64,000 nt of DNA from the NCBI GenBank assembly GCA_963971425.1, contig OZ020517.1:22330462-22394461 (forward strand), read 5' to 3'. The stretch comes from Bryoerythrophyllum caledonicum. Lineage: Eukaryota; Streptophyta; Bryopsida; Pottiales; Pottiaceae. The notes beneath the pieces are model-generated. The model did not search any database and was not told the DNA's origin. It saw only the letters and a program-made list of their open reading frames with translations. A program made the translations under genes and the position numbers. Every line of letters starts with the position of its first letter. Position 1 is the stretch's first letter. Positions 16,353-45,297 of the stretch are shown one piece after another.

Positions 16353-16362
16353 AATTCTGTAG

Positions 16363-16425
16363 GGGGATTGCTATTTTGCGTGCCCAATTATGCGAGCTGC
16401 GAGCTGCGAGCCTAGGTTTGCGAGC
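16363..16425 (+). repeat. MULE A left terminal inverted repeat
   Basis: Starts GGGGATTGCTATTTTGCGTG, followed by tandem GCGAGCT(GC) copies and GCGAGCCTAGG. It matches inverted copies at 44947-45008 and 52674-52738, and the start of MULE C at 45298. Confidence 0.85.
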
Positions 16426-17531: not shown

Positions 17532-19477
17532 TCAGAAGTAGGAATCCTTGGAAGTGTTTGTGGAAGGTGAGAGGCCACAAATCTCCACGTCGGCTTCATC
17601 ATCTATAAAACGACGAACACTACAGTCGAAATTTGGAACAGAAGAAGTCGAAGACGGAGATTGAGCCAGAGCCTGTGTAGTAGCAGCTGCCGCATCCCAA
17701 GGCGTCATGTTGAAGTCTCGTTCAGGAGATAACAAATGCGCAATCAATCTGAGCATGTGAACCACAGAATAGTTATGGACAGAATGAAGAGTTAAAGTAT
17801 TGTATATCATCGAATTATCAAACTTACATACTCAATCTAGTTCTCTTTGCAACTCTCCGAATCGGGACGTCCACTTCAATAAGCGGATGAGCATCAGCAA
17901 CAGAGGGAACATGAGGTACGGGATGACGCCCTTGAAGAAAAAGCTTCAATTTTGCGTTAAAGACTGTAATGTCGTCGTCAAGGGCTACGATATGCCGGCC
18001 CGCTGATTTGCAAGCTCTTACAGAATTCCCTGTATTGGAAACACAAGATTCAATGACCGAAGAGGAAGATGAAGTTCAAATTACCGACCAATAATGCATC
18101 TTCAATGAGAAGGAATAGAAATTACCAACGGAAGCAAATGCATCGAGGATAATGGAGCCAGGTTTCGTGAGTGCCTCAATGAACATCTCAATGAATGCTA
18201 CGTCTTTTTCACGGGGGCCCCTCCACGGAATCGAGCCATTCATCGATTGAGATTCTTTTGAAGTAAAGTTGAACACGACATCCGAATCCCCCACTCCCAT
18301 GCCAAACTCGGTGTGGTCATCGTTTACGGCAATGTGAAAGTTGTCAGCTCCAAGCTTCTCATGAATGAAGAGTTGTACTTTGAAGCGTCTGCTCTGAAAA
18401 TGAGATAAGAGGGCAATTAGTATGAAATCGAAGACCGGAATCGAAGAATGAAACAGAACAGAGAATCGTATTATACCTGGACAGCAGGAGAGAAGAACGA
18501 CGACAAGGGGAGGTCGTTAATTCCCCACCACTCACGAATCGGCTGAAAGCTATAAGCGGCCGCGAACGAGAGAACATCCGCTTTTATGCTCGGAACGTCG
18601 GGGACAAACAAAAGAACAACCCCCTTCGCTTGAAGAAAATGCTCCACGAACTCAAAAAGCGTCTCCGTGTCCTCGACGGCATACTGATTCCATACTGGGA
18701 TGAAACCAGAGTTCTCGGAGACCCCGGGAACCGTCATGCCGTCCTTAAAATCTCCAATAATCAAATCAAAGCCGCTATGCGGGCACTTCGCAGAAAGAGA
18801 GAGTGTCCCAGTTTCATCCTTAACCTGAAAAACGAAGAGGCTTTCATTTATAAAAAAGTCATCAGCTCGAATTTCAAAAACCGAATAGAAGATAGCAAAG
18901 GATGAAACAAATAACAGAACAGATTGAAAGTAGAGTGAAAAAAATAATAACAAAACAGAACGAGAGCGACGGACAGCGTATGAAATACAAGTGCCGATGT
19001 CGGCAATGCTTGGGGAAATACACGAAAGGAGTATTTCCTTCCCATAAACGAGCTACCGACATGGGGGTTGAAGAAAACGGTATGCAAACAAATTGCATAA
19101 TGACTACAGAACATTAGATCAGTACGAAATAGTTGAATGGTAAGTGGAACTGATTTCTTAGTAATGAGAAGAGTACCTGGAGGGCAAAGTGGTTGAGTTC
19201 TTGAAGGTTTGGATGGACGTTGGGCAAATCCTCCATTATATTTCTTATACTGGAGTTGGCAACAAAAATACGAGATCGAACAGAGGAGGATGGCTTGGTT
19301 TGGGGCTTCGTCGAAGCCGCACGTTTCTTCCGCTCTTTAGAGATGATGGTGTCTGGATTCACAAGACCAAAGTCTACGTCCGCAGCTGGTACCTTCGAGC
19401 AAGATGAAGGCCGTGGTGGACAAAACAGCGGAGCAAACTCGGGGACGACAACATCTAAATCCATCTCCGTTGTGGCC

Positions 19478-22327
19478 TGTGAACCAAATAAACCCCCCTT
19501 AGTGGATGGATTTATTGTGGACACTAATTCCTAACCCTACTCACAAGGTTATCATTGCAAGGAGTTCATGCTCCCACATACACAAGATGGCAAGCGGTGG
19601 AAGTATTCACTATCATATGGTTAGTAAAAACTTGCTTCAATTAAGTTAGGTATTTAATTCGATTAATGCATTTATCTTCATCATAGTCCTTGACTCCTAC
19701 GCCCTTCTTTTGACTTCTGGTTTACTCTTCTTTTATCTTCCTTTTACTGTTCTTTTACTGTTTTTTTTTTTTTTTAATTTTTAATTTTTAATTTTTAATT
19801 TTTTTTAAAAATAAAAATATTAAAAATATTTTATTAATATTTTATTATTATTATTATTTTTTAATTATTTTTAAAAAATATATATATATATTTTTTAATT
19901 TTATTTTTTTAAAAAAACAAAAAAATAAAATAAAATTTACTCTTCCGTTCACCTTCACTTTTGGTTCAAGTTCCTTACTCCAATTACCCAGCCGTTAATA
20001 CTGATCCGTGACTTCGATTTACTTCTTAAAGATTGCACGCTATTGGTGTAACTTCAAGCTTCATAACTTCTGGTGTAATCGTCCAAATCCAATTTTTTAA
20101 ACGCCTATTATTACTAATTTTTCACGACCTACTTAATGAGCAATTCATAACTTCAAGATAACATGTGTATTGACCCCCAACCAAGCGACCAGCAGTGACT
20201 CAACTCACGGAACGCACAACTTCAACATCTCTATGCACCTTCAACCATTATTCACTCAACCAATCAAAACAATCTGATGGCATGGTCAATCATCATACAA
20301 GGTGCAAAGTTCATGGTTGATTTAAGCAACATAGAATTCCCACTTTTAGGGCAGCGCTTCCGCGCGTAAATTGTTTTTTCCGGAGAATTTCTCACAACTT
20401 CAATCAAAAGCTACGACATGGGCTTAAGCATTGAACAAGGAAGAGCACAAGTAAGGGAAACAAAAGAACAACAAATTCTCTGGAACAAGGGACCCCCTGC
20501 CACTTGACTCGCGCGCTCTCTCCACCTGAACACCGAACTTGCTGTCTCTTCCGAGCTCACAGAGATACCCCTGCGCGAACCCCCAGACCCCACGCGCGCA
20601 TACAAGGTCTCCTCAGAACACACTCGTAGATTCCGCGCGACGCGCAAAAACCTCACCCTCGCAGCGAACTCCAACAGCCCTCTCGCGGCTCACGGCACCG
20701 GACTCCTCACGCATCGCACTCCAGCAACCGAACTCCCACCAACGGCGCAGCGACGCCGCTCTCGCTCTACCCTCCAAACACAATCGTGGAAGACAACGCA
20801 AGCGGCCGCACTCGGACCCCACAGCCAGCCTCCCCGCTCTATCGCACTCCGCTGTTCATACCCTCTTGCTTACACACACAAAACTCAGTAGACATACCTC
20901 CATCACAACTCCTCGCCCACCGTGGGCGTCTCTCGCTCCCAGCGATCGCGCTTGGTTCACGTGGCCAAGTTCCCTCACCGCTGTCAGACAGGAGTTCCTC
21001 TCTAATCTCCGCACCTCGTCGCGCCACGCCTGATGTCTCCACGCTTGATCGCGGCGCGCCTCGCACCAGCCTCAACTCGCAAGCACTCGAACCCACGTCC
21101 ACGCAGACATCCAATCGCCGTAGACCGAATCTCACCACACCAGCCGCTCTCGCTGACCGCCACTACGCACACAATCCCTCGTCAACCTCGGCGCTTCACC
21201 GCCAAACACCGCAGCACACCTCCGGCTAGGACACCTGCGGATCGGCCCTTCGTCTCCTTGCGCGCAGCCGTTCCACTCCAATTCCAGCGAGCGCTAACCT
21301 TGTCCTCTGCACTCGGTCCAAGCTGCGCTCAAAGAAGACAACTCGGCGCACTGCCTCGCGTCACCTCCGCAGCCACGGATCTCGTCCCTACTGCAGTCAA
21401 AACCGCACGAGAAAGGAAGGACCCACAACACACAATCTCGCGCTCCACTCCTGGCCGCCTCAATCACACCTCTCTCCTACGTTTCGCGGGGCTCCTCCAT
21501 TCCCCTTTCCAGACGCGAGACCCCAACCACCCTAAAAAACTCTACACACACAAAAAACCAGAGAGAGAGAAAAAAACTCCTAGTCCCAGTCGACCGGTGC
21601 CCTCCCGCTTCCACGGCAGCCGCGCACGTAACTCACGCTGGAAGTCCAGCGTTTCTTCAGCAGATTCCGGGGAATATTCCCCGGGAAAACCCAAAATTCC
21701 CCCTCACCAGCTCGGGGGAAGGAAGAAAACAAAAATAAAAAAAAGTTTTTTAAAGGTAACTTCGGCATGCCATTAAGGGCAGCCCATGATCGCCAATAAT
21801 TGGTGCTAATTTCTCCCCTCGTCACCATCTAACTTTTCTAATTTCTTCCAAGGCCATGTGCCACTACTTCGTGCATGTTTTTTAAAAGATTAACTCAAAA
21901 GTGGCCACATCATGGTTGCACTCTGCATTTTGTTTACTTTTGTTTTTTGTTTATTTAATTACTTATTTGTTTACTTACCTCCTTGGTTTTTTAGTGTGTT
22001 TTTCCCAAGGCTTCAACCCATTGTGTTAAAAACACATGTGGTTTGAGGTGTCTCCCTTTTTGCAAGAATTCTTTTCGTCTTCTAAGTTTTTCTTTTTTCC
22101 TCTTTTTTTTTCTTTCTTTTAATTTTTAGGTTTTTAACAAAATTAGATCTCCACTTGGAGATGATGACCTCTTCTAAATTAGGAAATGGCAAGTAAAAGG
22201 CCTTTCCAAGCCCTTTAACCACAATGGGTGGTTTAGTCTAACCATCTCACCCTAACTACCACTTTCTAATGCTAACTAGTTAATCTTAATGCCCAAATGA
22301 CATCGTGAGCCGTTTTGGGGGCTCACA
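19478..22327 (-). repeat. 3' LTR of the gypsy element
   Basis: 2850 bp. Reading along the plus strand: an AT block (19760-19940, TTTTTAATTTTTAATT-type), then a GC- and CpG-rich block (about 20330-21700) with several long but domain-free open frames on both strands, then a T-rich end. The open frames are identical in the other LTR and look like stop-poor composition, not genes. Confidence 0.95.
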
Positions 22328-22485
22328 CATGGCGGCCATCTGGGACAACTCGTAGAGGCAGAGAATCCAAAGGCTCTTGCTCTTGGGCACACGGTCAAAA
22401 TTCCCTTGTTTCACATTTGAACAAGAACCAAGACCATAAATGAGAAGAATGGGGGAGTCCCAAGTGGATGTAGGTTGTGAATAAT

Positions 22486-25400
22486 TCACACCTTATACTC
22501 CTTGCATCGGTTTCCCGAAGTCCTTGTTGGAAAGTCCTCTCCATTTAAGGTTTGAAGTTGAACAGAATTGTTGGAGAAGACTTCCTTCACGAGGTAAGGA
22601 CCTAACCATAAGGCATCAAATTTCCCTGGGAAATCCATGCGGCGCGCATCTTGGAGTAGCACGAGCATTCCCGGTTGTATTGACCGGACTTTGTTGCGCC
22701 TATCAAACGCAATTTTCCTGCGGCGCTGAATGGCCTCCATGTGTTGCGCACTAATACGGCGCCGCTCATCCAATTCCTCCAAGCGGCCCAACCGATCAGA
22801 AATTGAGGCAGCGATTGGCCACCTCCCAGACACCGCAACTCGGAGAGAAGGTATTTCTAACTCGATGGGGAGAATGGCTTCGACACCATAAACTAAAGAA
22901 AATGGGGTGGCCTGGGTGGTGACCTTAAAAGTGGTTCGGTAAGCCCACAAGGCCGCTGGGAGTTTTGTATCCCAATCATGTTTGGAGTCCACGACCGTCT
23001 TGCGTAAAATATTCACCAAAGTTTGGTTAACACGTTCGGTGTGGCCATTGGTTTGAGGGTGGTAAGGGGTGGTTTTCCGGTGATTAATCCTAAACCGAGT
23101 TGTCATGGCCACAATCACTTCATTCAAGAAATGTTTGCCACGGTCACTGATGAGGATTTTTGGACATCCAAACCGTGTGATAACTTGTTCAAACAAGAAC
23201 TTAGCGGCGTGGTTGGCGTCATTGGTTCGCACGGCTTTTGCTTCGGCCCATTTGGTGAGGTACTCGGTAGCGACCACTATGTGTTTCATCCCATTGGAAG
23301 AACTAGGGTGAACCTCACCGATATAATCAATTCCCCATTTCTCAAAGGGAAGCAAGGGAAGTGAAACTCTCAAAGGCAAGTTGAGCCGGAGATCATTCCT
23401 AGCATACCTTTGGCATGCGTCACAACGTTGGGCATACTCGTGGGCATCTTGGAAAAGCGTAGGCCAATAGTAGCCTGCGCGGAGTACCTTCTGGGCTGTC
23501 AAGGCTCCAGAAAAGTGGCCACCACACGCACTGTCGTGGCAAGCTGACAAAATCGTGGGTATTTCCACGGCTGACACACACCGGCGAAGGAGGCCATCTA
23601 TTCCACGACGATACAACTTTCCACCCACTATGGTGAAGTGACGACTATGGAGGCGGACCTTTCGCCTCTCATTTTTGGACAAGGTCTCAGGTAGGCGGTG
23701 GGTGGTAAGGAATTCTGCTACTAGGCCATACCATGCAGGAATAGATGAAACTTTAAATAAAGTCTCATCCACTAATGTCTCATCGATGGGGACCACTCCA
23801 GGTTCTTCGGATAAGCGTGAAAGGTGGTCCGCCTGAAGGTGCATTCTTCCAGGCCTATATTCTACTGTGTAATCGAATTCCTCCAACAACAAGACCCACC
23901 GGGCTAGTCGGCCGCTTAAGTCTGCTTTGTTGACCAGGTACTTGATAGCCATATGGTCTACATAAAAGACCACCGGGTTCAAAAGAAGGTAGTGTCGGAA
24001 CTTCTTCACTGAGAAAACCATTGCAAGACACTCCCTCTCTGTGGTGGAGTAATTTCTCTCTGCGGGGTTCAACTGTCTACTTGCAAAAGCAATTGGATGG
24101 TCCTTGTTTTTATCTCCTACAGCTTGGCAGAGCGTACTACCTACCGCCACCGATGATGCATCGCAAAAGACATGGAAGGGTAAATCCCAGTTTGGAGGCC
24201 TCAACACTGGATACGAGCTAAGCTCGGTTTTTAAGACATCGAAGGCTTGTTGACACTCCGGAGTCCACTCAAATTTTACCTCCTTCTGCTGAAGTCTAGT
24301 AATGGGCATAGATTTTGTGGCGTAGTCATGAATGACCTCACGATACCACCCTACATGTCCGAGAGTCTTCTGAATATCCTTGACGTTCCTAGGAGGGGGC
24401 AATTCTACTATGACTCTCACCTTCTCTGGATCTGGCTCTCTACCATTCTTAGAAACCACGAAGCCAAGTAGGACTCCCTTCTCTACTGCCAAGAAGATCT
24501 TCTCTGGGTTTAAGGCTATTCCCGTGTGTCTACAACGCTCAAGGCTCTCTTTGACACACTCAAGGTGGGAATCCTTTGAGGATTGGGTGCTAAAGTCGTC
24601 AATAAAGACCGTCATAGACTTGTGTAAGAGATCGGAAAACGCGTAGGTCATTGCTCTCTGGAAGGCGGCTGGTGCATTACACAACCCAAATGGCATCACT
24701 AAATAAATGAAGGTTCCCCAGGGAGTAGTGAAGGCCGTCTTATGGTAATCTTCATGTGCTATGGAAATCTGATTGTAGCCTGAATACCCATCCATGAAGG
24801 TGTACAACTCATGACCGCCGACCTCTTCTAAAATGGTATTGATAAATGGGAGGGGGAAATGATCTTTCTGAGTGTGCTGGTTTAATTTCCTATAATCGAT
24901 ACACACTCGAAGTTTTCCATTTTTCTTTTTGACCAACACCATGGGGGAGACCCAGTCAGAGATTTCCACTGGTTTGATAAATCCCGCTTGCAAAAGCTTT
25001 TCTAATTCTGCCTTCACTATTAGCTGGAGGTTGGGGTTCATTCGGCGTTCCTTTTGTCTAATGGGAATCGTGCCTGGAAGAAGGGGAATGTGATGTTGGG
25101 TTACCTCCGGGGGAATTCCCTTAAGATCCTTGTAAGACCAAGCAAACACATCACGATATTCTAGGACTAAATCCTTATACGTGGCCATCTCTTCCTCACT
25201 TAATCCTACCCCAACCTTAATGCTACGGTTTTCTTCTCCTTCACGTGAGACATCCATCAATTTCCAATCTTGGGGGTGCACATGGGACTGTTGAGTAGGG
25301 CCTCTGTACCAATCACTAGGAATTGGAGGATATATTGGGCCTGAACTTCCAGCTAAAATACCAGAGGACGTCCTCTTAAAATGAAGAGATGGATTGAGAG

Positions 25401-28400
25401 GCCCTTCGTCCACCAAGACCTCTAGCTCTTGAGCTTGTGTGCCCTCAACATCTATGCCGAATGCCTCTCCCAATTCCAAGTCATCTAATAGAGGAACTAA
25501 GCCTTGCTCTAATTCCGACCCCACGAGGATATCTTCCATAAAGTTTACTGAAATAGCCTCATCCGCGCTTGAGATGGGGTGTTCCTTTAACCATTCTACA
25601 TACTCTTCGGTTGGGGCCCATTCGTAAAGCCCTGGACCCAGACTTTTGAATGGAATTTTGTGGGCCTCTACTGGATGGACCCTATCAGCGGCTTCGTGAG
25701 GTAAAAACCTCACCTTCTTTGGGGGAACCTTTGTCAACACTTCCAATGACTCATCCTCAGAAGAGCTGTGGCATCCACGACAATATCCGTACTTCAAAGG
25801 CTTGATATCCACCTCCGTAAGGTTATGTGGCGGTCCATAAGTAATGTGAGGCCTAAGGCCTCCCCAATCTACACGAGCATTGGCAACTCTCAACCATGGA
25901 CGGCCTAACAACAAGGGGTAAGTTTCCTTGTTGGAGCGCATTCGAAGTACTTGGAAGGTGAGAGAATACTCTTCCCCCCCTGTGATGACCTTACAATTAC
26001 TAATTTGGCCTAAAGGCGCTTCTGCACTTTGGTTGGCCATGTTGATGATAAAAGGTGAGGGTTCCGTGATGTCTAGGCCTAATTTCTCCATGGTGGAGAG
26101 AGGCATAATGTTTAACCCACTACCACCATCCACTAATACATGGGGTACTATCTTGTCCACGATGGAAACTTCAATTGTGCATGCCCGAACCTCGGTGGTA
26201 GGTGAGGTAGACTTAACCCGGGCAGCTAGTTTAACCTTGGCCTTGGGCCGCCGTTTTACTGGGGTTCCAGTCCTGAGAGCTCTTCTCATGGGAGGAGAGA
26301 CTTCTAACAATTGGGCTATAGTGATGTCGGCCTTAAGACGACCTAAATCCGACCACAAGTCATACGAGCCCGTCACCACACTTTCTGCAGTGAGAGGAGG
26401 TAGTCTAAGCTCGGGAATGGGAATCTGTGGGCCTTCCCATTGTTCACTGAGTTGAGGAGCATGGTTCCCAGGCCTAGAATTTCCTTGGGTGGACCTAGAG
26501 TTTGCCCGTTGAGTGTTTTCTATTGCCTCTCTCGTGGTCTCATTTAAGTCAGAGAAATGTGGTGAATCCTCATCAGAGCTATCACTATCCTCTGGTATAG
26601 GTGGAGGAGGGCTAGAATATTTAGGATCACGACGATTGGCCCTTGTTTGCACTGCTAGAGCTGGCAGCACACAAAGTTGCTCCTCACGAGATGAACTAAC
26701 CTCGTGGAAAACCACATTGAGCTCCGTGAGAGTGGGGGATTGTTCAGATACAACCTCACTTGAGACTGTAGCAAAACGGACGTCTTGTGGTCCTTGGTTT
26801 TGTTGTCCACCCTGAGGTGGTCCTTGGTTAAGAGGAATGTAACCACCCTTGGTGTTCACTCCCATTGGAGGGTTTTGGTTCTGGCGGTTGTTATTGTAAT
26901 CGTAATAGAGGCTAGGGGGTCTAAGTGTGTTATCAAAGGCAGGATTACGGGCCCCCCTCAAGTGATCTTGGGCTTGTTGCGGGTAATTCCCTGGCGGAAA
27001 GGTCATGGGAATTACCTTCTCCGGCCTACGGCATACATGGGTGGGGTGATTGCCGCCACAGTTACCACATACTACACCACTCTCTATCCAACAGTGCCCA
27101 ATTGCATGTCTACGCCCACAAACGTTGTGGATCTCGTGACGTGGTTTCTGTTGGCCTCCAAAACCTGGACTAGGAGACACATAACCTTGTTGGCCCTGGT
27201 TAAGCCCTACTTGCGGTGGGTTCCTATGAGGAGGCACATAAGGCTGCTGACTAGGGTGGTGTTGTTGTGCAGATGCTCCCATGGTGCAAAATGGGCTAGT
27301 ATGGCCAGGTTGGCCACATTGAGTGCACCAAAGTCCCGAAGCATGTTTACCAGACTCTATAGGTGGCGGTGGTTGGTTAGGATTTTGGTTCCTAATCAAC
27401 ATAGCCATTTGATCTTGCATGGCTTTAATTTGTTGGACCAACTGATTTTGGAACCCTTGTTGACCTTGGAGGACCTCATTCCTAAAATCATCCTTCCAGG
27501 TTGTTCCTTCAGCTGGATAAGTGATTTGAGGGAGAGGTGCGGGCACTCTAGCATTCAAGGGGGGAGCGTAATAATTCCACATAGGGACAGGCGTACCTAA
27601 GGTGCCTTGAGCACATTCACGGGCTACCTCTTTTCCCTTAGCGTGAATTGGTATGAAACTAGGAATGTGGTGCTCTTCCTTCCTCCACAACCTCTCATGA
27701 TCTCTATCAATCCGCTCTATCAACCTAGCTTGATCTTTAGCGGCCGCTAAAGATGCGGGGCGAGCCCTCAGGATTTCTCGAATGGTAGTCTCGTTGTTAA
27801 ACCCTTGGATAAAGAATTGAGTCAAGGTATCGTCGGTGAGGAGGTTGCCCACAAATCTAGTGACCACTAGCTCAAACCGGCGAATGTACGTGGTAATATC
27901 TTCACCTTGTCCCTGGCGCAAGGCTGCTAAGGCAGTGAGGGCATTACCTTGCCCTACTTCGGGCCTAAAATTCTCCAAAAACGCCCTCATAAGACTATCC
28001 CAACTGTCAAAGGTGTTAGGAGGATGGTTCCTATACCATTCGTAGGCGGCATCCTTTAACGTGCAAGAAAACCAGACTAAGTAGTAGCCCGGGTCAGTGA
28101 TAAGGCAAGTGGTGAGGAGCTCCAAGAACCGCTCTACATGAGCGGATGGGTCTTCATCCTTGGTTCCTTTAAAGATAGGCAAATTTGGGGGCATAGGAGC
28201 TGCCTGCAACCCAATGGGTACTACGATGGGCAAACCCCTTGGTTGAACCAAGGGATTGATAGGAATGGCATCCGGAGGAGGTGGCCCTCCAAAATCCATA
28301 GTGGAAGGTGGTGGAGTGCCCTCACGTCGAGTAGCACCCACGAAAGAGTTAGGATCTAGAGGAAAAATAGGCAACAAAAGTCTAGGTGAGAGAGGAGGGA

Positions 28401-28548: not shown

Positions 28549-30062
28549 CTACTCCAAGTCAAATCCAAGCTTCAATCCCCGTGGCTTCCATCCAATTCCA
28601 GGGTGATAAGGTATCTACTACGCATTCGATCCTATCAACGTGCTTGTGAGTAACGTGAGTATGTGGAATTTGCACGTGTGGCCACTTCCACCTACATCAC
28701 CTTAATCACACTCTATACGGAGGACCACCAGTACCAAGACAATACTTTTTAAAATATTCTTTTAAAGTTCGATGAAGCCGCCGAAGAAACCTGTTCAAAG
28801 GACTTACCCATCATGGGCAACGACAAAGAGCTAACTCATTGAGAAGTGTCTCTACGGGCATCACCCCGTACAAAGCCAAATCTCAACAAGCGCCATACAA
28901 TACAAACCCAACTGTGGGGCTGACCTAGATCTTAACAATGGAAGGTGTGATCCTTGGTATCCTTAGTAACCCCCTTGGTAACACCTCGGTAACTCCCTCT
29001 TGGTAACACTCTTGGTAACACTCTTGGTAACACTCCGGTAACACCCTCGGTATCCCCCTTCACCTTCCACCGACTAAGTTAGGCATTACCCACTAGGAAG
29101 GAACAATATGGAATACGAGACAAAATCCATAAAATGTGTGGACTTGGATTATCACCGAGCAGAAAACGTACCTGGCTGCATCGCCAGCCAACCTGTCACA
29201 GTTAATTCGAATACGACCGTGGACCTACACGCAACTAACGGAACTAATGGCCAGCTAGGTAATTAATTAACAAGTTTTAGAGGGAAATTACGTACCTCAA
29301 GCAACTCCCGCCAATCCACCATTAGCACAAGTTCGTTGCATATAAGGGTTCTAGCTGGCCAAGTCTACCGAATCTAAGGCAATTCTCCGTGAGGCACAAG
29401 GTTCCGAATTCTTAATCACAATGTCTACTCTGGCATAATTCTAAGTTAATAACGCGGTCCTAATGCCATGAAGAAGGTCTAGGATACATACCTCAAGCCG
29501 CTCTCCTTCCTATCACGACCCCAACTTCTTGAAAACCTCCATAGCTCCAACTCTCCTCCATGGCAGCTCATCCAACCATACATACGATTCACTTGCAACA
29601 AAAATTTCAAAACTCCAACAAAACACCAAGTTGTACTCACCTTGGTGGTCAGTCAAGCACGGGGGGAAGGAAGGGGCGCCCTTGTCCCATACCCGGGCTC
29701 ATGCACCCTTCCCCTTCGGCCTAGAAGCTCACTGGAATTCTTACGAACACCGTGGGAGGGCCTCAACCTTTCACCCCTAGGCCCCGTTGCTCGACACGAA
29801 GCCACAAGACTAGAAGGAGATCCCTCCGGCACAATGTGTTTGTAGCTGGAAGGTCGGGAAACCACACTCCCTTCTAGTCCCCCACCTTAAAACACAACTT
29901 GGCACACACAAAACTAACAACTAACAACTAACAACTAATACTAAAGGGAGTTAAGCACTTACCTCAAGCTACTCAACGCCGCACCACCACAAAAATCTGA
30001 TAGCGTTTGCACCTACATCCAAGGTAGAACAACAACACAATTCAAACAATAAACACGCCTGG
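28549..30062 (-). other. Gypsy leader with GTTACC-type repeats
   Basis: 1.5-kb untranslated leader between primer site and gag. At about 28945-29060 it holds a run of GGTAACAC/GGTAACTC copies (GTGTTACC in element sense), spaced about 10-15 bp. No convincing gene is present. A similar GTTACC run precedes the second retroelement's gag at 57.93-58.17 kb. Confidence 0.7.
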
Positions 30063-30080
30063 CTCCCGGCAGACGCACCA
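30063..30080 (-). promoter_or_regulatory. Reverse-transcription primer binding site (tRNA-Gly type)
   Basis: Three bases inside the 5' LTR the element strand reads TGGTGCGTCTGCCGGGAG, beginning with the TGG expected opposite the CCA end of a tRNA. It would pair with a tRNA ending CTCCCGGCAGACGCACCA, which from memory fits plant tRNA-Gly (UCC). Confidence 0.7.
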
Positions 30081-30083
30081 AAA

Positions 30084-32933
30084 TGTGAACCAAATAAACC
30101 CCCCTTAGTGGATGGATTTATTGTGGACACTAATTCCTAACCCTACTCACAAGGTTATCATTGCAAGGAGTTCATGCTCCCACATACACAAGATGGCAAG
30201 CGGTGGAAGTATTCACTATCATATGGTTAGTAAAAACTTGCTTCAATTAAGTTAGGTATTTAATTCGATTAATGCATTTATCTTCATCATAGTCCTTGAC
30301 TCCTACGCCCTTCTTTTGACTTCTGGTTTACTCTTCTTTTATCTTCCTTTTACTGTTCTTTTACTGTTTTTTTTTTTTTTTAATTTTTAATTTTTAATTT
30401 TTAATTTTTTTTAAAAATAAAAATATTAAAAATATTTTATTAATATTTTATTATTATTATTATTTTTTAATTATTTTTAAAAAATATATATATATATTTT
30501 TTAATTTTATTTTTTTAAAAAAACAAAAAAATAAAATAAAATTTACTCTTCCGTTCACCTTCACTTTTGGTTCAAGTTCCTTACTCCAATTACCCAGCCG
30601 TTAATACTGATCCGTGACTTCGATTTACTTCTTAAAGATTGCACGCTATTGGTGTAACTTCAAGCTTCATAACTTCTGGTGTAATCGTCCAAATCCAATT
30701 TTTTAAACGCCTATTATTACTAATTTTTCACGACCTACTTAATGAGCAATTCATAACTTCAAGATAACATGTGTATTGACCCCCAACCAAGCGACCAGCA
30801 GTGACTCAACTCACGGAACGCACAACTTCAACATCTCTATGCACCTTCAACCATTATTCACTCAACCAATCAAAACAATCTGATGGCATGGTCAATCATC
30901 ATACAAGGTGCAAAGTTCATGGTTGATTTAAGCAACATAGAATTCCCACTTTTAGGGCAGCGCTTCCGCGCGTAAATTGTTTTTTCCGGAGAATTTCTCA
31001 CAACTTCAATCAAAAGCTACGACATGGGCTTAAGCATTGAACAAGGAAGAGCACAAGTAAGGGAAACAAAAGAACAACAAATTCTCTGGAACAAGGGACC
31101 CCCTGCCACTTGACTCGCGCGCTCTCTCCACCTGAACACCGAACTTGCTGTCTCTTCCGAGCTCACAGAGATACCCCTGCGCGAACCCCCAGACCCCACG
31201 CGCGCATACAAGGTCTCCTCAGAACACACTCGTAGATTCCGCGCGACGCGCAAAAACCTCACCCTCGCAGCGAACTCCAACAGCCCTCTCGCGGCTCACG
31301 GCACCGGACTCCTCACGCATCGCACTCCAGCAACCGAACTCCCACCAACGGCGCAGCGACGCCGCTCTCGCTCTACCCTCCAAACACAATCGTGGAAGAC
31401 AACGCAAGCGGCCGCACTCGGACCCCACAGCCAGCCTCCCCGCTCTATCGCACTCCGCTGTTCATACCCTCTTGCTTACACACACAAAACTCAGTAGACA
31501 TACCTCCATCACAACTCCTCGCCCACCGTGGGCGTCTCTCGCTCCCAGCGATCGCGCTTGGTTCACGTGGCCAAGTTCCCTCACCGCTGTCAGACAGGAG
31601 TTCCTCTCTAATCTCTGCACCTCGTCGCGCCACGCCTGATGTCTCCACGCTTGATCGCGGCGCGCCTCGCACCAGCCTCAACTCGCAAGCACTCGAACCC
31701 ACGTCCACGCAGACATCCAATCGCCGTAGACCGAATCTCACCACACCAGCCGCTCTCGCTGACCGCCACTACGCACACAATCCCTCGTCAACCTCGGCGC
31801 TTCACCGCCAAACACCGCAGCACACCTCCGGCTAGGACACCTGCGGATCGGCCCTTCGTCTCCTTGCGCGCAGCCGTTCCACTCCAATTCCAGCGAGCGC
31901 TAACCTTGTCCTCTGCACTCGGTCCAAGCTGCGCTCAAAGAAGACAACTCGGCGCACTGCCTCGCGTCACCTCCGCAGCCACGGATCTCGTCCCTACTGC
32001 AGTCAAAACCGCACGAGAAAGGAAGGACCCACAACACACAATCTCGCGCTCCACTCCTGGCCGCCTCAATCACACCTCTCTCCTACGTTTCGCGGGGCTC
32101 CTCCATTCCCCTTTCCAGACGCGAGACCCCAACCACCCTAAAAAACTCTACACACACAAAAAACCAGAGAGAGAGAAAAAAACTCCTAGTCCCAGTCGAC
32201 CGGTGCCCTCCCGCTTCCACGGCAGCCGCGCACGTAACTCACGCTGGAAGTCCAGCGTTTCTTCAGCAGATTCCGGGGAATATTCCCCGGGAAAACCCAA
32301 AATTCCCCCTCACCAGCTCGGGGGAAGGAAGAAAACAAAAATAAAAAAAAGTTTTTTAAAGGTAACTTCGGCATGCCATTAAGGGCAGCCCATGATCGCC
32401 AATAATTGGTGCTAATTTCTCCCCTCGTCACCATCTAACTTTTCTAATTTCTTCCAAGGCCATGTGCCACTACTTCGTGCATGTTTTTTAAAAGATTAAC
32501 TCAAAAGTGGCCACATCATGGTTGCACTCTGCATTTTGTTTACTTTTGTTTTTTGTTTATTTAATTACTTATTTGTTTACTTACCTCCTTGGTTTTTTAG
32601 TGTGTTTTTCCCAAGGCTTCAACCCATTGTGTTAAAAACACATGTGGTTTGAGGTGTCTCCCTTTTTGCAAGAATTCTTTTCGTCTTCTAAGTTTTTCTT
32701 TTTTCCTCTTTTTTTTTCTTTCTTTTAATTTTTAGGTTTTTAACAAAATTAGATCTCCACTTGGAGATGATGACCTCTTCTAAATTAGGAAATGGCAAGT
32801 AAAAGGCCTTTCCAAGCCCTTTAACCACAATGGGTGGTTTAGTCTAACCATCTCACCCTAACTACCACTTTCTAATGCTAACTAGTTAATCTTAATGCCC
32901 AAATGACATCGTGAGCCGTTTTGGGGGCTCACA
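30084..32933 (-). repeat. 5' LTR of the gypsy element
   Basis: Same length and order as the 3' LTR at 19478-22327. As the 5' LTR of a minus-strand element it should contain the promoter in its part nearest 32933. I could not pick a unique TATA box. Confidence 0.95.
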
Positions 32934-35640
32934 TGGCCGTTAACATTGGTTCCAGCGTTGTCTTCCGGCTGGAATCCACTGCGGCCACCACTGATAACAA
33001 GAGAATTCTCGCTTCCGCTTCAGCTGCCGCCTTCAGGGAAATTTCTGCAGCAACTTTCTTCTTTGCCTCCTCTTCCGCTTTGCGCTTTGACACCCGGGTC
33101 TTCGAGGTTGTGGCGTCGGAGGCGGGCGGGTGCACAAGTACCTCCGTGCCAATCAAGGCTGGCTGTATTCCATTCCTTAGGGAAATCTCAAAAGACGGAG
33201 GGCAATTCAGTGGGCAATCTAAATACCAACCGCAAGTTGCAAAATGCTCTTGACCCCACCTCTTCGCAATCTCGTCAGTTATCATGCAATTGTCACTTCT
33301 TCTGTCCAAGTATCCAGGAAAGAATGCAGGAGTCTTCGACACTACACTTCCAGGAAGGAGAATAAATTGGTAATACCTGAACAGAACTCTAGAAACCGCC
33401 TCGGCCAAACCGATCTGGTCCTCCGGTTGTTTATTCTTATGAGTTTTGTTGACCTCGAAGTCCTGAACAAAAGCAAGATCCCATAGCTGGATCCGCATCT
33501 CCTCAACGTAATCAGGAAGACTCTTCACAGCGCATTGACCAGCCGGGTGATAGTCGATGGTGACATTGAGATCAGATAGCGAGGCACTGAAGAGGTCCTG
33601 AACATCATTGGCAATCTGGAAACATGGAACATATAAAATGAGGGAACAATAAACATAGTATTTTGCAGCTAGTATGCAGCAAAATTGCATACCTGCGCCC
33701 ACCAGGTGGCCTTGTGCAGCCATTCTTGAAATGAGTGGTCAGCGAACTTTGATCGAGGAAATCGCACAGCTGCCCGAAGCGATGTAGGCATATTCCAACG
33801 CTGCAACCACTTGACCTTCGTTGAGGGGTCCATGGTTGATGTCGCAAGGTACCAGAGCTTCTCCTGGGACATTTCAGGGTCATCTTCGTGGTTCTCATAG
33901 TGCTTTCGCACCTCACAAAGAAAATGCGGCGTATGCTTCGGATCTGCAATGGGAAGCTGCTTCATTACTTCGGACCGCCGGTCCTTCCTGATCTTGGCAA
34001 CCGCTTTCCCAATAACCTCATGAAGTTTCCCAGTGTTCCACTCGCTAGATTTCTGTGGGAACTGTTCTTTGAACTTCCTAGTAGCATGGGCAACGGCGTC
34101 ACCTAACTCTTGCTACAGAAATGAGATAAATAGCATTCAGTTAGGGGTCTATATAGAAAAATGCTAATCAAAAAAAAAAAATAACATGAAGACAAAACGG
34201 ACAGGGATCGGTAATTGCATGATTTAGAGCTCCACTGAAGAGGCCTGCTAAAGTAAGATGGTGCCTACATCGTCATCAGGAGATAAGCTGAACCACAGGA
34301 ACCATTTCAATCTATAGACTATTCGATGCCGACAAGGGGAATGATCAATTCAGTCGAAGGCACTTTAAAATCAAGGCTGATACAATGTACTGGAAGAATG
34401 AGATATGAGAAGAATCAATTTTACATGTACCTGATAGAGGACACCAATGAGAGCATCGACTGTCAATGTGTACCATGTGTGTTGATTTGCAGACTTTTGC
34501 TTCTTATCCGCGCTTGCGAGGTCCTCTTTCGATACCAAATCTTCAAAAAACTTCAAAGGTTGTCCAACGATTCCTTGCATGCGGTAGAGCTTGTGGACGA
34601 GGTTAAGTTTTACATGTCCAGTTTGGTTCCTCCTGCATTTAATAGGAAAAACAGTTAGAGAAGTACAAAGCAATAAAAATTATCTCGAATTGGTCCAGAA
34701 GCGTACCAATTTACTTGGTGAAGCGCGGTTTGGAGGCGCCCCACCTGTCCATCAACTTCAAGAATGATTGACTCAACTGCATAATGCCACGCTAGATCAC
34801 TGTTGTGATCTCTATTAATTATAGGTAACCACGCTGCGAGCCTGTGATTACCGTCCCACACGAAGAACATTTTTCCCGAGAACTGCATCCATACCTCTTC
34901 TTTCATTAACTCAATCTCGAACTCTTCGTCAGCCTTAACCCACATTGGGCTCCATTTTGATTTAATTTCATGGATCACTTCCTGCGATCTGCCTTCATTA
35001 TCATGGATGGCAACGTAGAACACTCCGTGGCCGTCCATATAGCCTGTGGTCACAAACTGTGCTCCAAGTGCCATAACATCGTTTTTTAGGTATGGTCTTA
35101 CCGCAGCGAGAGGCAACATTCGGCATAGGGGAATACTAAGCTTTGACTTGTTTCTTGGCTTGAATCACCTTTCGTCAAGGATAAGACTAGTGTTCGACGA
35201 CTCCATGACGACCAACTTATCCATTTCCCTCCCAAGCTCTTCTGCTGACATTTCGATAGCCGGTTCGCAATCACGCAGCTGATCTCCAACATCAGAAAGT
35301 GGAACGTCCTCGATGATGGATTCATTGTCCAAAGTATGAGCCTCCCCGCCATCATCACCTAAGGATTCATAGAATATTAGCCAGTTATCATGAATTTAGT
35401 ATTGATGCAACTGAAGAATTACCTTCTTCAAAGATATCAGGCTGTGACCGATGAGATATAGCACCAGGAGCCGGGGCTGTAGCCTCCGCTTCTCCTTCTT
35501 CCAATGCTGAACAAGGACAACAATTCAAAGATTATGAACTACAACAGGGAGCAAAAGAGATTATGGAATAAATTGATCAATCCTGATCAGGCGCGCTTGA
35601 TCAAAGGCACTCTTGAAAATAGGCGCCCCGGCACCTGGAG

Positions 35641-35778
35641 CACCGGCATAGAGCACCGGCACCTAGGAGCTGCCGACATCGGCAGCCCCCTGCTGGCGCC
35701 GCAACCCGCACAGGTCGCGACGCCAACAGGGGGCTGCCGATGTCGGCACCCTCTAGGTGTCGGGGCTCCATGCCCGAG
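35641..35778. repeat. Foldback element 1 (GCCGACATCGGC core) in intron 3
   Basis: Two ~58-bp arms (35641-35698 and 35721-35778) are inverted complements with a 22-nt loop. Each arm contains GCCGACATCGGCAG or its complement. It lies between exons 3 and 4 of the ParB-like/methyltransferase gene. Confidence 0.85.
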
Positions 35779-35904
35779 AGGATGGTTCTAATCTTCGAAT
35801 ATGCTAGGCTAGCCCACTAAGCGTAGCGGATTATGCATGTACAAGTAGCATGCAGACCAGTTCGCAATTCCAACTGGAACTAAAAAACCACTTAGCCACA
35901 TATG

Positions 35905-38352
35905 AATGGACTTGGCGAAGTAGTTCGCATGCAACAGTTTGTGTAATTGTACAATCACCTTCCTTATCATTCACCTGGACACCCAGATGATGATATATAT
36001 AAACACCGTAAACCCTAAACCAAGGGTCCGACCACGGGATGGTTGATCTACATGACCTGTGTATACAGTGTCTGATCGTTCGCAACAGACACTACGACAT
36101 TCACAGCAGTACTACTCTCGACTAGCTAGAGATCTATCATTCTTAAGTAAGTTTCTTGATTCTCTAGGATTTCGTCAAGTTGGAAATGGTATTTGTATGC
36201 TACCTGAACTTGTAAATGGCATGAGTCGAACAATGGATAAGCTCGAATCCCAGTGACAATTAACAACAGTCACAGTAACGTCCTACGTGGAAACCGATAC
36301 AGAATGGATACTGTTTTTCAATCGCATCATGCACACACTGGAAATCTGAACCGACCGGCTTGGTTCTATGCCAATGAAAACAGTCGAGAAAGATGAAAAC
36401 GAGTTGTAACTTGTGGTGCAACAAGAGTTACATACCGTCATTGACGTCCGCCGTAATCCTCCTAGCTTCGGCGTCCTCCATCGCCATCCTATTAGGATTT
36501 CGTTCCTCTGCATTCAGATGAACACAAGTTTAGCATGCAAAACTCTGTGCGGCGCTTATAGTATAATGAGACTAGAGACTGCCGACATCGGCAGCCCCCT
36601 GCTGGCGCAACAATTTGCTCAGGTCGCGACGCCTGGAGGGAGTTGCCGATATTGGCAGCCTCCAGGTGCCAAGGCTCGATGCGCGAGAGGATAGAGCTTT
36701 AGCCTCAGCTAACCCAATTTTCAAGAATTTTCTTCACTTACTTGCAACCGACAACTGCATAGTCGCGACCTCAAAGCTGTGGTGCATTTGTGCACTGAAA
36801 TGCCTACCTTAAACAACAACTGCTTTTGAGCCCTAACAATGAATTCTGGGCTTGGCGCACACCGAGGACATGCATAATCCGTGCCCCAGAAAACCGCCGG
36901 GAACTAGACGTCCTCGATTAGGACCGCTTCGGCTGATTGGTTATTTCGACATAAATTATCATAAACTGTTGACTCATCCCCCGAAAATAGCTACCCTCGT
37001 TGGTATGTCAAAAGCCTATGTAAGCTTGATGGACATCATAAGTTGGTCCTAATCTTAGGTATCACCGTTCAGCTTAAAATATGGTAGGGTTGACCACTAA
37101 GCGAAGCGGAATATGCATCTGCGAGCAGCATGCGGACCACTTCGCCAAGTCCAACTGCAGTATAACCCGTAAAGTCGAAATCGACCAGATCGATCTGACT
37201 CTGGTCACGCTCTCGTCATTACTAAATTTAGATCGTATGAAGCTACAATTTTGGAAGGCTGTAGAGTTTTCCCAGACCTATAAAATGACACCATTCATGC
37301 TTCAAAATTCCTCATACTTTAGGAGATATTCACGGTCAAAGTTTGAAAACACTGTTAATTCATGCTGAAATCTGCCCAAAACTGCGGTATATTCTCATTT
37401 ATTCTCAAAATCTGCCCAAAATCAATTAGATCGCAATAACTTCAAAAATTCACCCAAACTAGTGATTCGTACATGTAAAAGAGGATCTCACAGCTGATGA
37501 TCTCACCGTTTGGAGTTTCAATCCGATAATTTTGTAACATGCCTTTTTAATTGTTGAAAATGGGCATTTGTATTTGTGTTTCAGCAGACCTCCATGTGAA
37601 AAATTAAGCGTTTCTTTAACTTTGAGAGGTCCTATGAGGGTAAAAATTATATGGACATATTCCTTACTCACATAGGAACAAGAATTTGAAGAGCCTCATG
37701 TCAAATTTCCTTTCAAAAATGGTTTTCTTGGCCCCCAAAACAGTTGTTTTCCATTCTACAACGAGGAAAAAATCTATTTTTCCAACTTTGAACATTACGA
37801 TGTCACAAATGGAGAGGAATTTTAAACTAAGATTCGGAATGCATGTACATGTACAAGTTAGGCACTAGATCTAACGGTTACATACTCGAAAATTTGTCAA
37901 AAGTTAAAAATTTTCACCTTGCATTGAAAGAGGGCAATTTTGAGGGTTTTCGACTTTAGAGGTTAATATATGCTACGACACAAACGACTGGACTTGGCGA
38001 AGTAGTTTGCAACAGTTTGTACTATTCTAGCTTCACCTTCCAATTAATTCACCTGGACACCCAGATGATGATATATATAAACACCGTAAACCCTAAACTA
38101 AGGGTCCGACCACGGGATGGTTGATCTACATGACCTGTGTATACAGTGTCTGATCGTTCGCAAGAGACACTACGACATTCACAGCAGTACTACTCTCGCC
38201 TAGCTAGAGATCTATCATTCTTACGTAAGTTCCTTGATTCTCTAGGATTTCATCAAGTTGGAAATGGTATTTGTATGCTACTTGAACTTGTAAATGGCAT
38301 GAGTCGAACAACGGATAAGCTCGAATCCCAGTGACAATTAACAACAGTAACG
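35905..38352. repeat. Direct duplication of ~360 bp (35905-36270 and 37985-38352) in the intron region
   Basis: The two segments are nearly identical over ~300 bp at an offset of 2078, including TATATATAAACACCGTAAAC, ACCACGGGATGGTTG and ATCTACATGACCTGTG. The second copy runs into the N gap at 38353, where the first copy continues toward a foldback element. The DNA between them (36.7-37.98 kb) has no supported gene. Confidence 0.85.
36572..36690. repeat. Foldback element 2 (GCCGACATCGGC core) in intron 2
   Basis: Same family as the foldback at 35641: left arm with TGCCGACATCGGCAGCCCCC, loop containing CAGGTCGCGACGC, right arm with TTGCCGATATTGGCAG. The arms are more diverged than in element 1. 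Confidence 0.75.
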
Positions 38353-38552
38353 NNNNNNNNNNNNNNNNNNNNNNNNNNNNNNNNNNNNNNNNNNNNNNNN
38401 NNNNNNNNNNNNNNNNNNNNNNNNNNNNNNNNNNNNNNNNNNNNNNNNNNNNNNNNNNNNNNNNNNNNNNNNNNNNNNNNNNNNNNNNNNNNNNNNNNNN
38501 NNNNNNNNNNNNNNNNNNNNNNNNNNNNNNNNNNNNNNNNNNNNNNNNNNNN
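38353..38552. other. Assembly gap (200 N)
   Basis: Exactly 200 N. It lies within intron 2 of the ParB-like/methyltransferase gene, between a recent duplication and a foldback element, so it probably marks a hard-to-assemble repeat and its length may be nominal. Confidence 1.
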
Positions 38553-38583
38553 GCCGATGTCGGCAGTGTCCAGGTGCTGGCGC

Positions 38584-38721
38584 TCTCGCGCATGGAGCCC
38601 CGGCACCTCGGAGCTGCCGACATTGGCAGCCCTCTGCTGGCGCGGCAACCTGCGCGGGTCGCGACGCTTGGAGGGAGCTACCGATGTCGGCAGCCTCCTG
38701 GTGCTGGCGCTCCATGCGCGA
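38584..38721. repeat. Foldback element 3 (GCCGACATCGGC core) in intron 2
   Basis: Arms about 38584-38643 and 38664-38721 are inverted complements (CATGGAGC..., GCCGACATTGGCAG / CCGATGTCGGCAG). The loop contains GGGTCGCGACGC as in the other copies. A further core (GCCGATGTCGGCAG) begins at 38553, right at the gap edge. Confidence 0.8.
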
Positions 38722-39558
38722 GAGGATGCAACCGACATCGTGCATTGTTGTGGAATGTTCTGCGCTAACCAGATAATCAAAGATAGACAAGAGATACTAA
38801 CCCTCAATGACTGCCGCCGAGCACCGCCCTTCGTCGGCTCCTTCTATCGCTAAACTATGATGATCTCGATATTCTGCGATCACGTCAACACAAATAGTTT
38901 TTGCAAATATTAGTCGCCCGCAAAGACTTTGATGACTAAAATGGGTGTCATGTCTTACGGGGAATTAGGTCGATCAGAGAAGGAAGAACGAGGGTCAGAG
39001 CTATGATCTGAAACCCTAAGCTCGAGAGTAGAAGCGTTGATTGTTGCTAATCGAGTATAGCTGAAATACCGCGTAATGCAGCTATCATGTCGACATGATT
39101 CAGAAAGCAAATTGTTGCAGTCAATAGAGACTTTCAGAACATTCAAGCTGTGAGTTCCACTTACCTGGGTGCGACAATTGCTCCGTCTCATCGGCACTGC
39201 CGCATTCACCAACGCCATCCTCACTTGTACTACCGCTGTGGCTTTCCGCAAGACTATCACCATTTACTATATTGCTTTCTACCAATCTCTGAAGGTCAGT
39301 TAAACTTTCTCCTACCTCCCCCACTCTGGCCTTCCCTGTCCCTTCAAACTCAAGTACTCTTGCTGTGTCCCCAACATCCACCAATCTACTACTGGATCTC
39401 ATCGCTCTAATCTGCCTGGATCGTTTCAGTTGCTTTCTATTCGTAAAGAAGAATGTTTGTTTTCGTCGTCTCATCGGCATAGCCCTTGAATTGCAGTTCT
39501 CTTTCTCTGTCAAGTTCACCTCTCCAATCTTGTCGAGACCCCCTACTCATTCTATTCC

Positions 39559-43100: not shown

Positions 43101-44066
43101 TCGCCATCACCAAATCCCTCTCCGGAGGCTCCTGAAGTACTTCCTTTGTCTCCACCAAGAACTTCTTCCCGGGTTCCACACGTGAGAGCTGTACAAGAGA
43201 CGGTCTGTGATGAGAATGACTGGCACATCGCAAGGCTTCCTAAAACATCTGCTAGGAAATGTTTCGCTCTTCAAGCCGGTACAAGGAAGAAGTGTGTGGC
43301 ATCTATTGTACAGAATAACCGAGCAACAGCTGCCCCTACTTACACCGGCTTGATGGATAATTACAGAAAGACTAGATTAGAGAGACATCGGTTCTTCTTC
43401 TGCAACGATGACATTCATCGTTGTGTTATGGGCACACGGCGCAAGTGGGTTCAAAGCATGCCACCTCCTCCACAATTTTGGCCAGTTCAGATGGGCACAA
43501 ACCTGAGCAAAACAGAGATACTTGCCTTCGAAACTGCAGGGTTCTGTCTCGCTGACCGTGAGGTTCTGTCCCGTAGACAGTTGTTTGGTGAAGGCGTCTC
43601 CGTCAACCTGAACGATTACCCTGTGCCTCCTAACCCTAGAGACCATCCAACCAAACGATACGGAAAAAACATCCGAAGAAACGAAGCTGCTCCTACTACT
43701 CGTCATCATAACAGTTGCGCCTCTGCTCACTCCATAATGGGAAAACTCTGCACGATTCTAATGGTTCCATCTCCAGCCCTTGGTTGCATTGTCACTTTGG
43801 AGTCGTGGAACATTTCCACAGTTTCCCGGTATTTCGTCACAATCGGCCAGTTTCCAAGCTGCGACTGCCTCTCTTTTACAGAGATGTCGAAGAAATCGCT
43901 TGGCAAACGCGGTTCATGGACTTACTGTAAGCACCTCTACTACATATTCAACATTGTATGTGGATTAGACCCGGAGGTAGATGTCTTTATTCACGCACCT
44001 AGTTTCAGTTGGAATGAAATCAAGCGTATTCTTCAGATTCTGCTCCTCAAATACTATGCAGTATAG
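40131..44066 (+). pseudogene. MULE-type transposase of MULE A with zinc finger and SWIM domain, one premature TGA
   Basis: Seen: exon 1 40131-42242 and exon 2 42618-44066, joined in phase 0 (CTT/GTAAGT ... CTCTGCAG/AAC), give 1186 codons before the stop, one of them TGA (41928-41930, codon 600). N-terminal Cys/His clusters (CLGDLKCANDSCDF; CAVC...CYGCCPAK...HLGSHGH, residues ~275-370) resemble a WRKY/GCM1- or FLYWCH-like zinc finger. Residues ~535-690 carry the MULE DDE pattern: VYDSTYCRVM, FKGFMADSAQANWNAV, then CLFHWAQSLEKH. The C-terminus has a SWIM finger CDC...CKHLYY (~1119-1142). Known: MULE transposases bind TIRs and cut and paste the element. The TGA replaces what is probably Arg (CGA). 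Alternative: it is inactive now but recently functional. A decayed relative lies in MULE C at 46.08-48.17 kb. I could not assign the third catalytic acidic residue with certainty. Confidence 0.82.
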
Positions 44067-44946: not shown

Positions 44947-45008
44947 CTCGCAACCGTAGGCTCGCAACTCGCAGCTCGCAAAATTGAGCACGCAAAATAG
45001 CTTGGTCC
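44947..45008 (-). repeat. MULE A right terminal inverted repeat
   Basis: Inverted complement of 16363-16425; read outward it starts GGACCAAGCTATTTTGCGTG. Its first eight bases (GGACCAAG) match MULE C's left end rather than MULE A's left end (GGGGATTG). Confidence 0.85.
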
Positions 45009-45018
45009 AATTATGTAG

Positions 45019-45297
45019 TGCTAATGGGGATGGAGATGGGGCGTACAATTTTGGCAATGGGATTGACGTGATCATAAATATTAGAAGTGGCAAAGTAGAA
45101 ACATGTTTTGAACCTTGATATTAACCCCTAAGGTACCGTGACAATAAAGCACCAAAAACACTTCAAAATTGTTGGATTCTAGTGCAATGAATAAAGAAGG
45201 AAATAAATACTTTCATTTCTACTTCTGACCTTAGGATCTCACTTAAGACTTATTAAGCAACATACTCTCAAAATTTCATAAACTTTGACCGCACGGA
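45019..45297. repeat. Spacer between MULEs A and C, including the left part of repeat R
   Basis: From about 45150 this aligns with 5980-6128. It ends in the left copy of MULE C's target duplication ACCGCACGGA (45288-45297). Confidence 0.7.

Follow-up and report, generated by a model that had tools for sequence, protein, structure and literature searches.

A putative Mutator-type transposon of Bryoerythrophyllum caledonicum carries a ParB-like/methyltransferase-like gene and candidate palindromic binding sites

Introduction

What would a transposon of a plant genome do with a large gene that joins a ParB-like box to a DNA methyltransferase-like fold? The question is raised by a 64,000-nucleotide stretch of the Bryoerythrophyllum caledonicum genome (contig OZ020517.1, positions 22,330,462 to 22,394,461; the whole stretch is called here the window). 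Within it a DNA transposon, element 1, carries such a gene, hereafter the ParB-MTase gene (MTase, methyltransferase), next to that of its transposase. A preliminary description of the window, made from the DNA letters and a list of open reading frames, had proposed that a Mutator-like element (MULE) acquired a prokaryote-type DNA modification protein, which could mark element DNA, counter silencing or guide transposition. Here we re-examine the gene, its relatives and a degenerate sibling, element 2, and describe arrays of a palindrome which suggest a binding site for the protein.

Results

Element 1 encloses a transposase gene and the ParB-MTase gene

Element 1 extends from 16363 to 45008 and is delimited by inverted repeats and a 10-bp target-site duplication (TSD). 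It measures 28,646 bp as found, and 15,185 bp after subtraction of a nested retrotransposon and one copy of the TSD of the latter. BLAST comparison of the two flanks aligned 16370-16425 with 45001-44946 as a 56-bp inverted repeat (91%). The complete terminal inverted repeats (TIRs) are GGGGATTGCTATTTTGCGTG... on the left (16363-16425, plus strand) and GGACCAAGCTATTTTGCGTG... on the right (44946-45008, minus strand). The extended ends, GGGGATTGC... from 16363 and GGACCAAGC... from 45008, are flanked directly by the left TSD AATTCTGTAG (16353-16362) and the right TSD AATTATGTAG (45009-45018), which are identical at 9 of 10 positions.

The transposase gene (40131-44066, plus strand; exons 40131-42242 and 42618-44066, supported by homologues) contains an in-frame TGA at 41928-41930 and stands head-to-head with the ParB-MTase gene. 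It has at least 50 relatives, the best being P0023 (1278 amino acids (aa), no stops, 67% identity within the 58% of the query that aligns best); none of the 50 listed carries a Riccia name. By eye, C-x2-H and, at the C-terminus, SWIM-like C-x-C..C-x-H motifs can be recognized. No Pfam family matched the relatives P0023, P0041 and P0072; PF00872 (Transposase_mut) gave a weak match in one of 19 relatives (E 0.034), and the MULE domain was absent from the 8 families listed. Members of the Mutator superfamily generate TSDs of about 8-11 bp. The 10-bp duplication, the TIRs and the SWIM-like C-terminus seen by eye thus point to a Mutator-type element, the transposase sequence alone being no proof. 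Since TIRs and TSD enclose both genes, the earlier idea that a Mutator-type element carries the ParB-MTase gene together with its transposase is supported. Just within the right end, seven CCCTAAA heptamers of the plant telomere type lie at 44342-44886.

The ParB-MTase gene is genuine and this copy is broken

The ParB-MTase gene (17532-39480, minus strand) is a genuine gene, as indicated by its GT-AG borders, its phases and its homologues. Rebuilt on the minus strand, it comprises 11 exons and 1252 codons ahead of the stop. Exons 1-6 lie at 39480-39165, 36507-36436, 35506-35423, 35358-34707, 34632-34431 and 34112-33693; exon 7, at 33615-32934 and 19472-19177, is split by the retrotransposon; exons 8-11 lie at 18824-18477, 18393-18126, 18029-17828 and 17748-17532. 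The start at 39480 and the stop at 17532 are those first described, and the agreement of GT-AG borders and phases is found again for all 10 introns. The multi-exon structure therefore stands, with 11 exons and 1252 codons in place of 12 and about 1268. Similarly, the motifs first reported are all present in the conceptual protein (VWDGNHRLAAW at residue 324, LDAFASVGNSVRACKSAGRH at 1107 and IVALDDD at 1127), the methyltransferase-like block following the ParB-like box after about 780 residues instead of about 600.

The 13.5-kb gap in the gene, rather than an intron, is a Gypsy long terminal repeat (LTR) retrotransposon inserted in exon 7 (19478-32933, minus strand), recognized by the identity of its LTRs and its TSD, TGGCC. 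Both LTRs (19478-22327 and 30084-32933) are 2850 bp long and identical at 2849 of 2850 positions, and the 13.5-kb element contains one uninterrupted 2020-codon gag-pol frame: this insertion is very young. Across its empty site the exon 7 reading frame runs unbroken. A single in-frame TGA interrupts codon 222 (35167-35165), a short way before the ParB-like segment; the one 'intron' seen that could remove it, of 33 nt, is implausible. With this TGA and a retrotransposon inside exon 7, the present copy is broken.

Relatives form a dispersed family in Riccia sorocarpa

With residues 223-1250 as query, one protein was retrieved, R1sor_024992 of the liverwort Riccia sorocarpa (1104 aa, E 2.7e-15), which is alignable with the window protein across the whole architecture. 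A profile built from these two sequences retrieved at least 22 proteins, R1sor_024992 included; all 22 matches listed are from Riccia sorocarpa and are spread over at least 8 distinct contigs (8 different lengths). Both searches scored only the approximately 8,000 candidates sharing most words with the query, and a domain is missing, wholly or in part, from many of the 22 gene models. Judged from these models, the Riccia family has multiple, dispersed copies, which is what a mobile gene should show.

No relative was found in phages by tblastn with one Riccia member (P0013, 864 aa), nor in viral contigs and prokaryote genomes scanned with peptide patterns of the ParB-like region, with tblastn confirmation. 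A recent capture from prokaryotes is not borne out by these searches.

The C-terminus has a methyltransferase-like fold with degenerate motifs

Most of the MTase-like domain is encoded by the exons within 17828-18824 (minus strand). The spliced C-terminus matches PF01555 (N6_N4_Mtase) with 30.1 bits, above the cut-off of 26.7, and five of six pieces of the family also match, with E values up to 10. A profile of the six pieces compared with PDB gave M1.HpyAVI (E 7.7e-10) and CcrM (4e-6). These matches, which bear out the MTase-like block of the preliminary description, identify the C-terminus as a beta-class N6/N4 DNA methyltransferase fold. M1.HpyAVI (5hek), CcrM (6pbd) and RsrI (1eg2) resemble the family profile across the C-terminal motif I region and the preceding strands; they differ from it in the motifs themselves.

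In beta-class enzymes motif IV reads (D/N/S)-P-P-(Y/W/F) and the SAM (S-adenosylmethionine)-binding motif FxGxG. The D-P-P-Y of the three enzymes is replaced in the window protein by D-F-K-D (within DFKDG) and, in the Riccia proteins whose sequence covers this motif (11 of 22), by [DN]-[IML]-P-[ST]. None of these 12 sequences has an aromatic residue at the fourth position; the first acidic residue is kept by 10 of the 11 Riccia proteins as well as by the window protein. An intact FxGxG was not found either: motif I is DAFASVGNS in the window protein, with FASVGNS at the place of FxGxG, and it is also degenerate in the five of 22 Riccia proteins covering it (VTAHSGES, LNAHKGES, FAGGWGAT, LAGGWGPT and FAAGWGAS). 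Catalysis has probably been lost, and a dead or strongly altered enzyme would be the simplest reading. Given a motif IV without its aromatic residue and a degenerate motif I, the idea that the protein marks element DNA by methylation is not supported.

The ParB-like segment is recognized by one conserved box

The ParB/sulfiredoxin-like segment FFVWDGNHRLAAW (34709-35164, minus strand) was recognized by its motif box. This GNHR box, VWDGNHR in the window, is present as W[DE]GNH in 16 of the 22 Riccia proteins and as WDGNYR in one; the segment is absent from the remaining five gene models. Searches beyond the box gave no ParB domain: Pfam, on 7 sequences, no ParB match; PDB profiles searched with the family's own profile, with or without an insertion of about 37 columns, no ParB or sulfiredoxin structure; NCBIfam, with the insertion removed, no confirmation of a ParB fold. 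In PHROGs, phrog_7527 (function unknown) was matched by 4 of 7 trimmed segments (best E 6.4e-4) and 1 of 4 whole proteins (0.035). AlphaFold2 models were poor, with a predicted local distance difference test score (pLDDT) of 45 for the 1104-aa Riccia protein and 48 for the exon segment, and Foldseek and VIA-align matched nothing relevant with these low-pLDDT models. A motif-independent profile of E. coli YbdM relatives (69 sequences) performed no better than controls: its scores were 12.4 and 14.7, whereas the reversed profile reached 17.0 and 17.9, the best of 30 column shuffles 20.6 and an unrelated profile 20.8.

Searching viral contigs for the box by DNA pattern yielded 13 stretches (L001-L013). 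A profile of nine trimmed phage box carriers gave weak PDB matches to SbnI (0.0018), sulfiredoxin (0.077) and ParB (0.57), and two of the nine matched Pfam ParB_N weakly (best E 0.012). Phage multi-domain ParB/sulfiredoxin-like proteins among these stretches share with the window protein a WDGNHR box between hydrophobic residues, and hhalign of the family against phage WDGNHR proteins gave E 1e-9 (1.8e-11 without the insertion). This match was not counted as proof of ParB, since the set was chosen by the WDGNHR motif and the likeness is confined to 20-23 aligned columns. ParB/sulfiredoxin identity is plausible from this one box: the box of the ParB domain first proposed is there, and the profile, AlphaFold2/Foldseek and YbdM searches gave it no domain-wide confirmation. 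Four of the phage-contig stretches (L001, L003, L007 and L009) contain open frames of 1,589 to 3,351 codons with a VWDGNHR or IWDGNHR box.

Element 2 is a degenerate sibling retaining a remnant of the gene

Element 2 (45298-52738) is a degenerate, inverted sibling of element 1 with the same TIRs and a perfect TSD, ACCGCACGGA (10/10; 45288-45297 and 52739-52748). A paralogue of its empty site, uninterrupted and with one copy of the 10-bp target, lies at about 5950-6550. Transposase remnants were detected by tblastn on the minus strand between 46192 and 48344 (46192-47533 and 47771-48344). At 51025-51204 (plus strand) the 3' end of the ParB-MTase gene has left a remnant with 59% identity over 180 bp to 17862-17683; it scores 48.3 bits, compared to at best 35.4 in 300 dinucleotide shuffles. 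The far end of element 2, this remnant included, is colinear with element 1. For this reason the ParB-MTase gene was probably already present in the common ancestor of the two elements. No further part of the gene was found by tblastn of element 2, and a full copy there was rejected. By eye, BTB/POZ-like coding fragments, possibly from a captured host gene, are seen on the minus strand of element 2 at 49991-50218 and 51383-51803.

A 14-bp palindrome is arrayed in both elements

The palindrome TGCCGA(YR)TCGGCA (TGCCGAYRTCGGCA) occurs at 26 sites of the window with up to two mismatches, compared to 0.43 expected and a maximum of 3 in 100 shuffles. All 26 are inside the elements. Element 1 accounts for 10 of them, one of which falls in an exon of the transposase gene and 9 in introns of the ParB-MTase gene; the other 16 belong to element 2. 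The 12 exact copies are distributed as 4 in element 1 and 8 in element 2, with none in the retrotransposon or the other 41 kb. When any centre was allowed, one extra two-mismatch site appeared, in a transposase exon; with up to three mismatches, 10 of 51 sites lay in the retrotransposon or beyond the elements, which is the behaviour expected of background. Among palindromes with 6-bp arms and gaps of 0-4, only this one (and its gap-4 shifted forms) occurs more than twice in the elements, and among 6-2-6 palindromes it alone is found there more than once. Outside the elements the repeated palindromes listed are T-runs facing A-runs only.

In element 1, intron 2 contains a pair, TGCCGACATCGGCA and TGCCGATGTCGGCA, 64 bp apart (35671-35748). 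Intron 1 contains a second pair with the same spacing (36580-36657), the second member of which has one mismatch, and a group of three with one mismatch each and spacings of 63 and 64 bp (38552-38692), the first of which adjoins a run of N. A single exact copy, TGCCGATGTCGGCA, lies in another intron at 18992-19005. In element 2 the array (48373-49658) is built of AT-rich units of about 64 bp. Considering both elements, 14 of the 17 gaps under 400 bp deviate from a multiple of 64 by no more than 3 bp. With the palindromes masked, the arrays of the two elements have no similarity (best E 0.78). When 17 units of element 2 were scored by spacer, conservation was 0.87 in the arms and 0.60 in the spacer; the profile was seeded with 14 motif-bearing units and 3 were added by spacer alone, a seeding which inflates arm conservation. 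An identical site with identical spacing in unrelated spacers argues for a bound protein, and this suggests the palindrome as a candidate binding site of the ParB-MTase protein. When an array pair was sought in viral contigs, one stretch (L014) was obtained.

Other features of the window

At 800-2100, GC-rich (60%) sequence looks by eye like pieces of a gene for a GSK3/SHAGGY-type kinase, likely an ordinary host gene. Two oppositely oriented copies of one gene family (14881-15357 and 54034-55161; 77% DNA identity over 184 bp) encode an MPSHWVYRQ..FFY..MGWH segment and a Cys-rich stretch. On the plus strand at 58624-60537, Gag-like frames with a CCHC zinc knuckle, seen by eye, perhaps represent a second retroelement.

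Discussion

A candidate role in self-recognition

How could such a gene serve the element? We propose that the Mutator-type element 1 encodes, together with its transposase and head-to-head with it, a large ParB/sulfiredoxin-like protein with an MTase fold that has probably lost catalysis. As a dimer, this protein would bind TGCCGA(YR)TCGGCA arrays, which in element 1 lie mainly within introns of the ParB-MTase gene itself. Once bound, it would mark out element chromatin, most likely against silencing, or else bring element DNA together for the transposase. The SAM-fold domain may serve as a binding or partner domain, for which the inactive subunit of METTL3-METTL14 is a precedent. The degenerate active site suggests that what this lineage has conserved is a role in recognizing DNA or chromatin rather than in methylation. 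We compare this role to that of VANC of the VANDAL elements because the element-1 arrays lie in introns of the accessory gene, as those of VANC21 do; the comparison with VANC made in the preliminary description would thus gain support from palindrome arrays restricted, in this one window, to the elements and present in the gene's own introns. That a ParB-like/pseudo-MTase passenger binds the ~64-bp arrays in a VANC-like way, keeping element chromatin from silencing or gathering element DNA, is a proposal on which our confidence is evenly divided. We infer alike the ParB fold, the binding of protein to palindrome, the partner and the anti-silencing outcome. More tentatively, and with some doubt, we suggest a two-part system of self-recognition, in which the ParB-like/pseudo-MTase protein and parS-like palindromes in introns and siblings would set element chromatin apart without DNA methylation.

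Several points weigh against this proposal. The ParB fold failed every motif-independent test run. The palindrome survey covers two elements in one window, and of the three element-2 units found by spacer alone, two carry three mismatches and the third, whose score of 6.1 does not reach the background maximum of 7.0, has no palindrome. Element 1 is broken in three ways, by a TGA and a retrotransposon in the ParB-MTase gene and a TGA in the transposase gene; element 2 keeps an array and only a remnant of the gene, and binding in trans would therefore be required. Finally, the transposase or a host factor could bind the palindrome instead.

The transposase version of this last point, in which the palindromes serve the transposase as internal binding sites and another task falls to the ParB-MTase protein, draws on the fact that transposases commonly bind repeated motifs in their own element, and on the joint retention of transposase remnants and an array in element 2. 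Yet the element-1 sites are in introns of the passenger gene and not at the TIRs, and a two-fold symmetric site would fit a dimer of a dedicated DNA-binding protein; we regard this reading as unlikely, though worth keeping in view. Alternatively, the passenger could be a host gene captured or merely overlapped, without role in transposition, the arrays being ordinary satellites. MULEs do often carry gene fragments (Pack-MULEs); here, however, a full-length gene with introns is present, the diverged sibling preserves a remnant of it, the Riccia relatives are multicopy, and two unrelated spacer families share the 14-bp site and its spacing, which makes such an accident improbable.

Two further readings keep the protein on the arrays and give it another task. 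A partition or tethering factor, spreading in a ParB-like way on parS-like arrays, would cluster element copies, or element DNA outside the chromosomes, in aid of segregation or transposition. Its ParB-like box, the arrays, and a palindrome that is two-fold symmetric and similar in length to parS are in keeping with this, but the ParB fold is unconfirmed and we give this possibility little credence. An active N6A/N4C methyltransferase modifying element DNA at or around the palindromes would agree with the fold match to the adenine MTases M1.HpyAVI and CcrM, with the first acidic residue of motif IV kept in the window and in 10 of 11 Riccia proteins, and with the symmetric GA/TC steps that the palindrome offers; modification is also what passages of PMC12477816 propose for such algal proteins. 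Against it, the motif IV aromatic residue is absent from 12 of 12 covering sequences and FxGxG is degenerate, and we consider an active enzyme quite unlikely.

Comparison with known systems

The protein class is already known, since ParB-MTase proteins of algal transposons have been published (PMC12477816): Sola1-1_Ec32 of Ectocarpus encodes a 1104-aa protein with a ParB-like and an N4/N6 MTase domain opposite to the transposase, and green and red algal cases are cited there. The window gene is alike in size (~1100-1250 aa), in its ParB-like region (recognized here by motif), in its N4/N6 MTase-like domain and in its location on the strand opposite to the transposase within a DNA transposon. 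Compared by description, it differs from the Sola-1 case by a Mutator-type carrier with a 10-bp duplication, a streptophyte host and liverwort relatives, as well as by degenerate catalytic motifs and palindrome arrays. No target site is named in the passages of PMC12477816 consulted; here the gene is accompanied by a likely one, so that binding is directly testable. PMC12477816 is the one paper found to treat proteins of this type; no ParB-MTase transposon protein of a land plant appears in the titles and abstract openings of the literature found, and Iyer 2011, Petroll 2025 or a 2016 BioEssays review might describe one. As far as searched, what is new is the plant-lineage Mutator-type carrier, the liverwort relatives, the degenerate catalytic motifs, the sibling with a gene remnant and the candidate target site.

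Charophyte and dinoflagellate retrotransposons carry cytosine methyltransferases (PMC5890265). These resemble element 1 as mobile elements with a DNA methyltransferase gene in the streptophyte lineage, and differ from it in that they are retrotransposons with C5-cytosine enzymes, whereas here an N6/N4 fold is encoded in a DNA transposon.

In function, the closest parallel would be VANC of VANDAL elements (PMC5735166, PMC10398659). VANC21 binds a 9-bp motif and brings about a loss of methylation; tandem repeats of this motif are found upstream of VANA21 as well as within VANC21 and VANB21 introns (PMC5735166). In both cases the protein is encoded by a second gene of a Mutator-type element, and a short motif is tandemly repeated in non-coding parts, accessory-gene introns included, and concentrated in the element family. 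Here the motif is a 14-bp palindrome in place of a 9-bp directional one and the protein has an MTase-like fold; the likeness is one of arrangement. It suggests that Mutator-type elements of early plants may have reached a VANC-like strategy with different protein parts, a way for an element to recognize and protect its own DNA.

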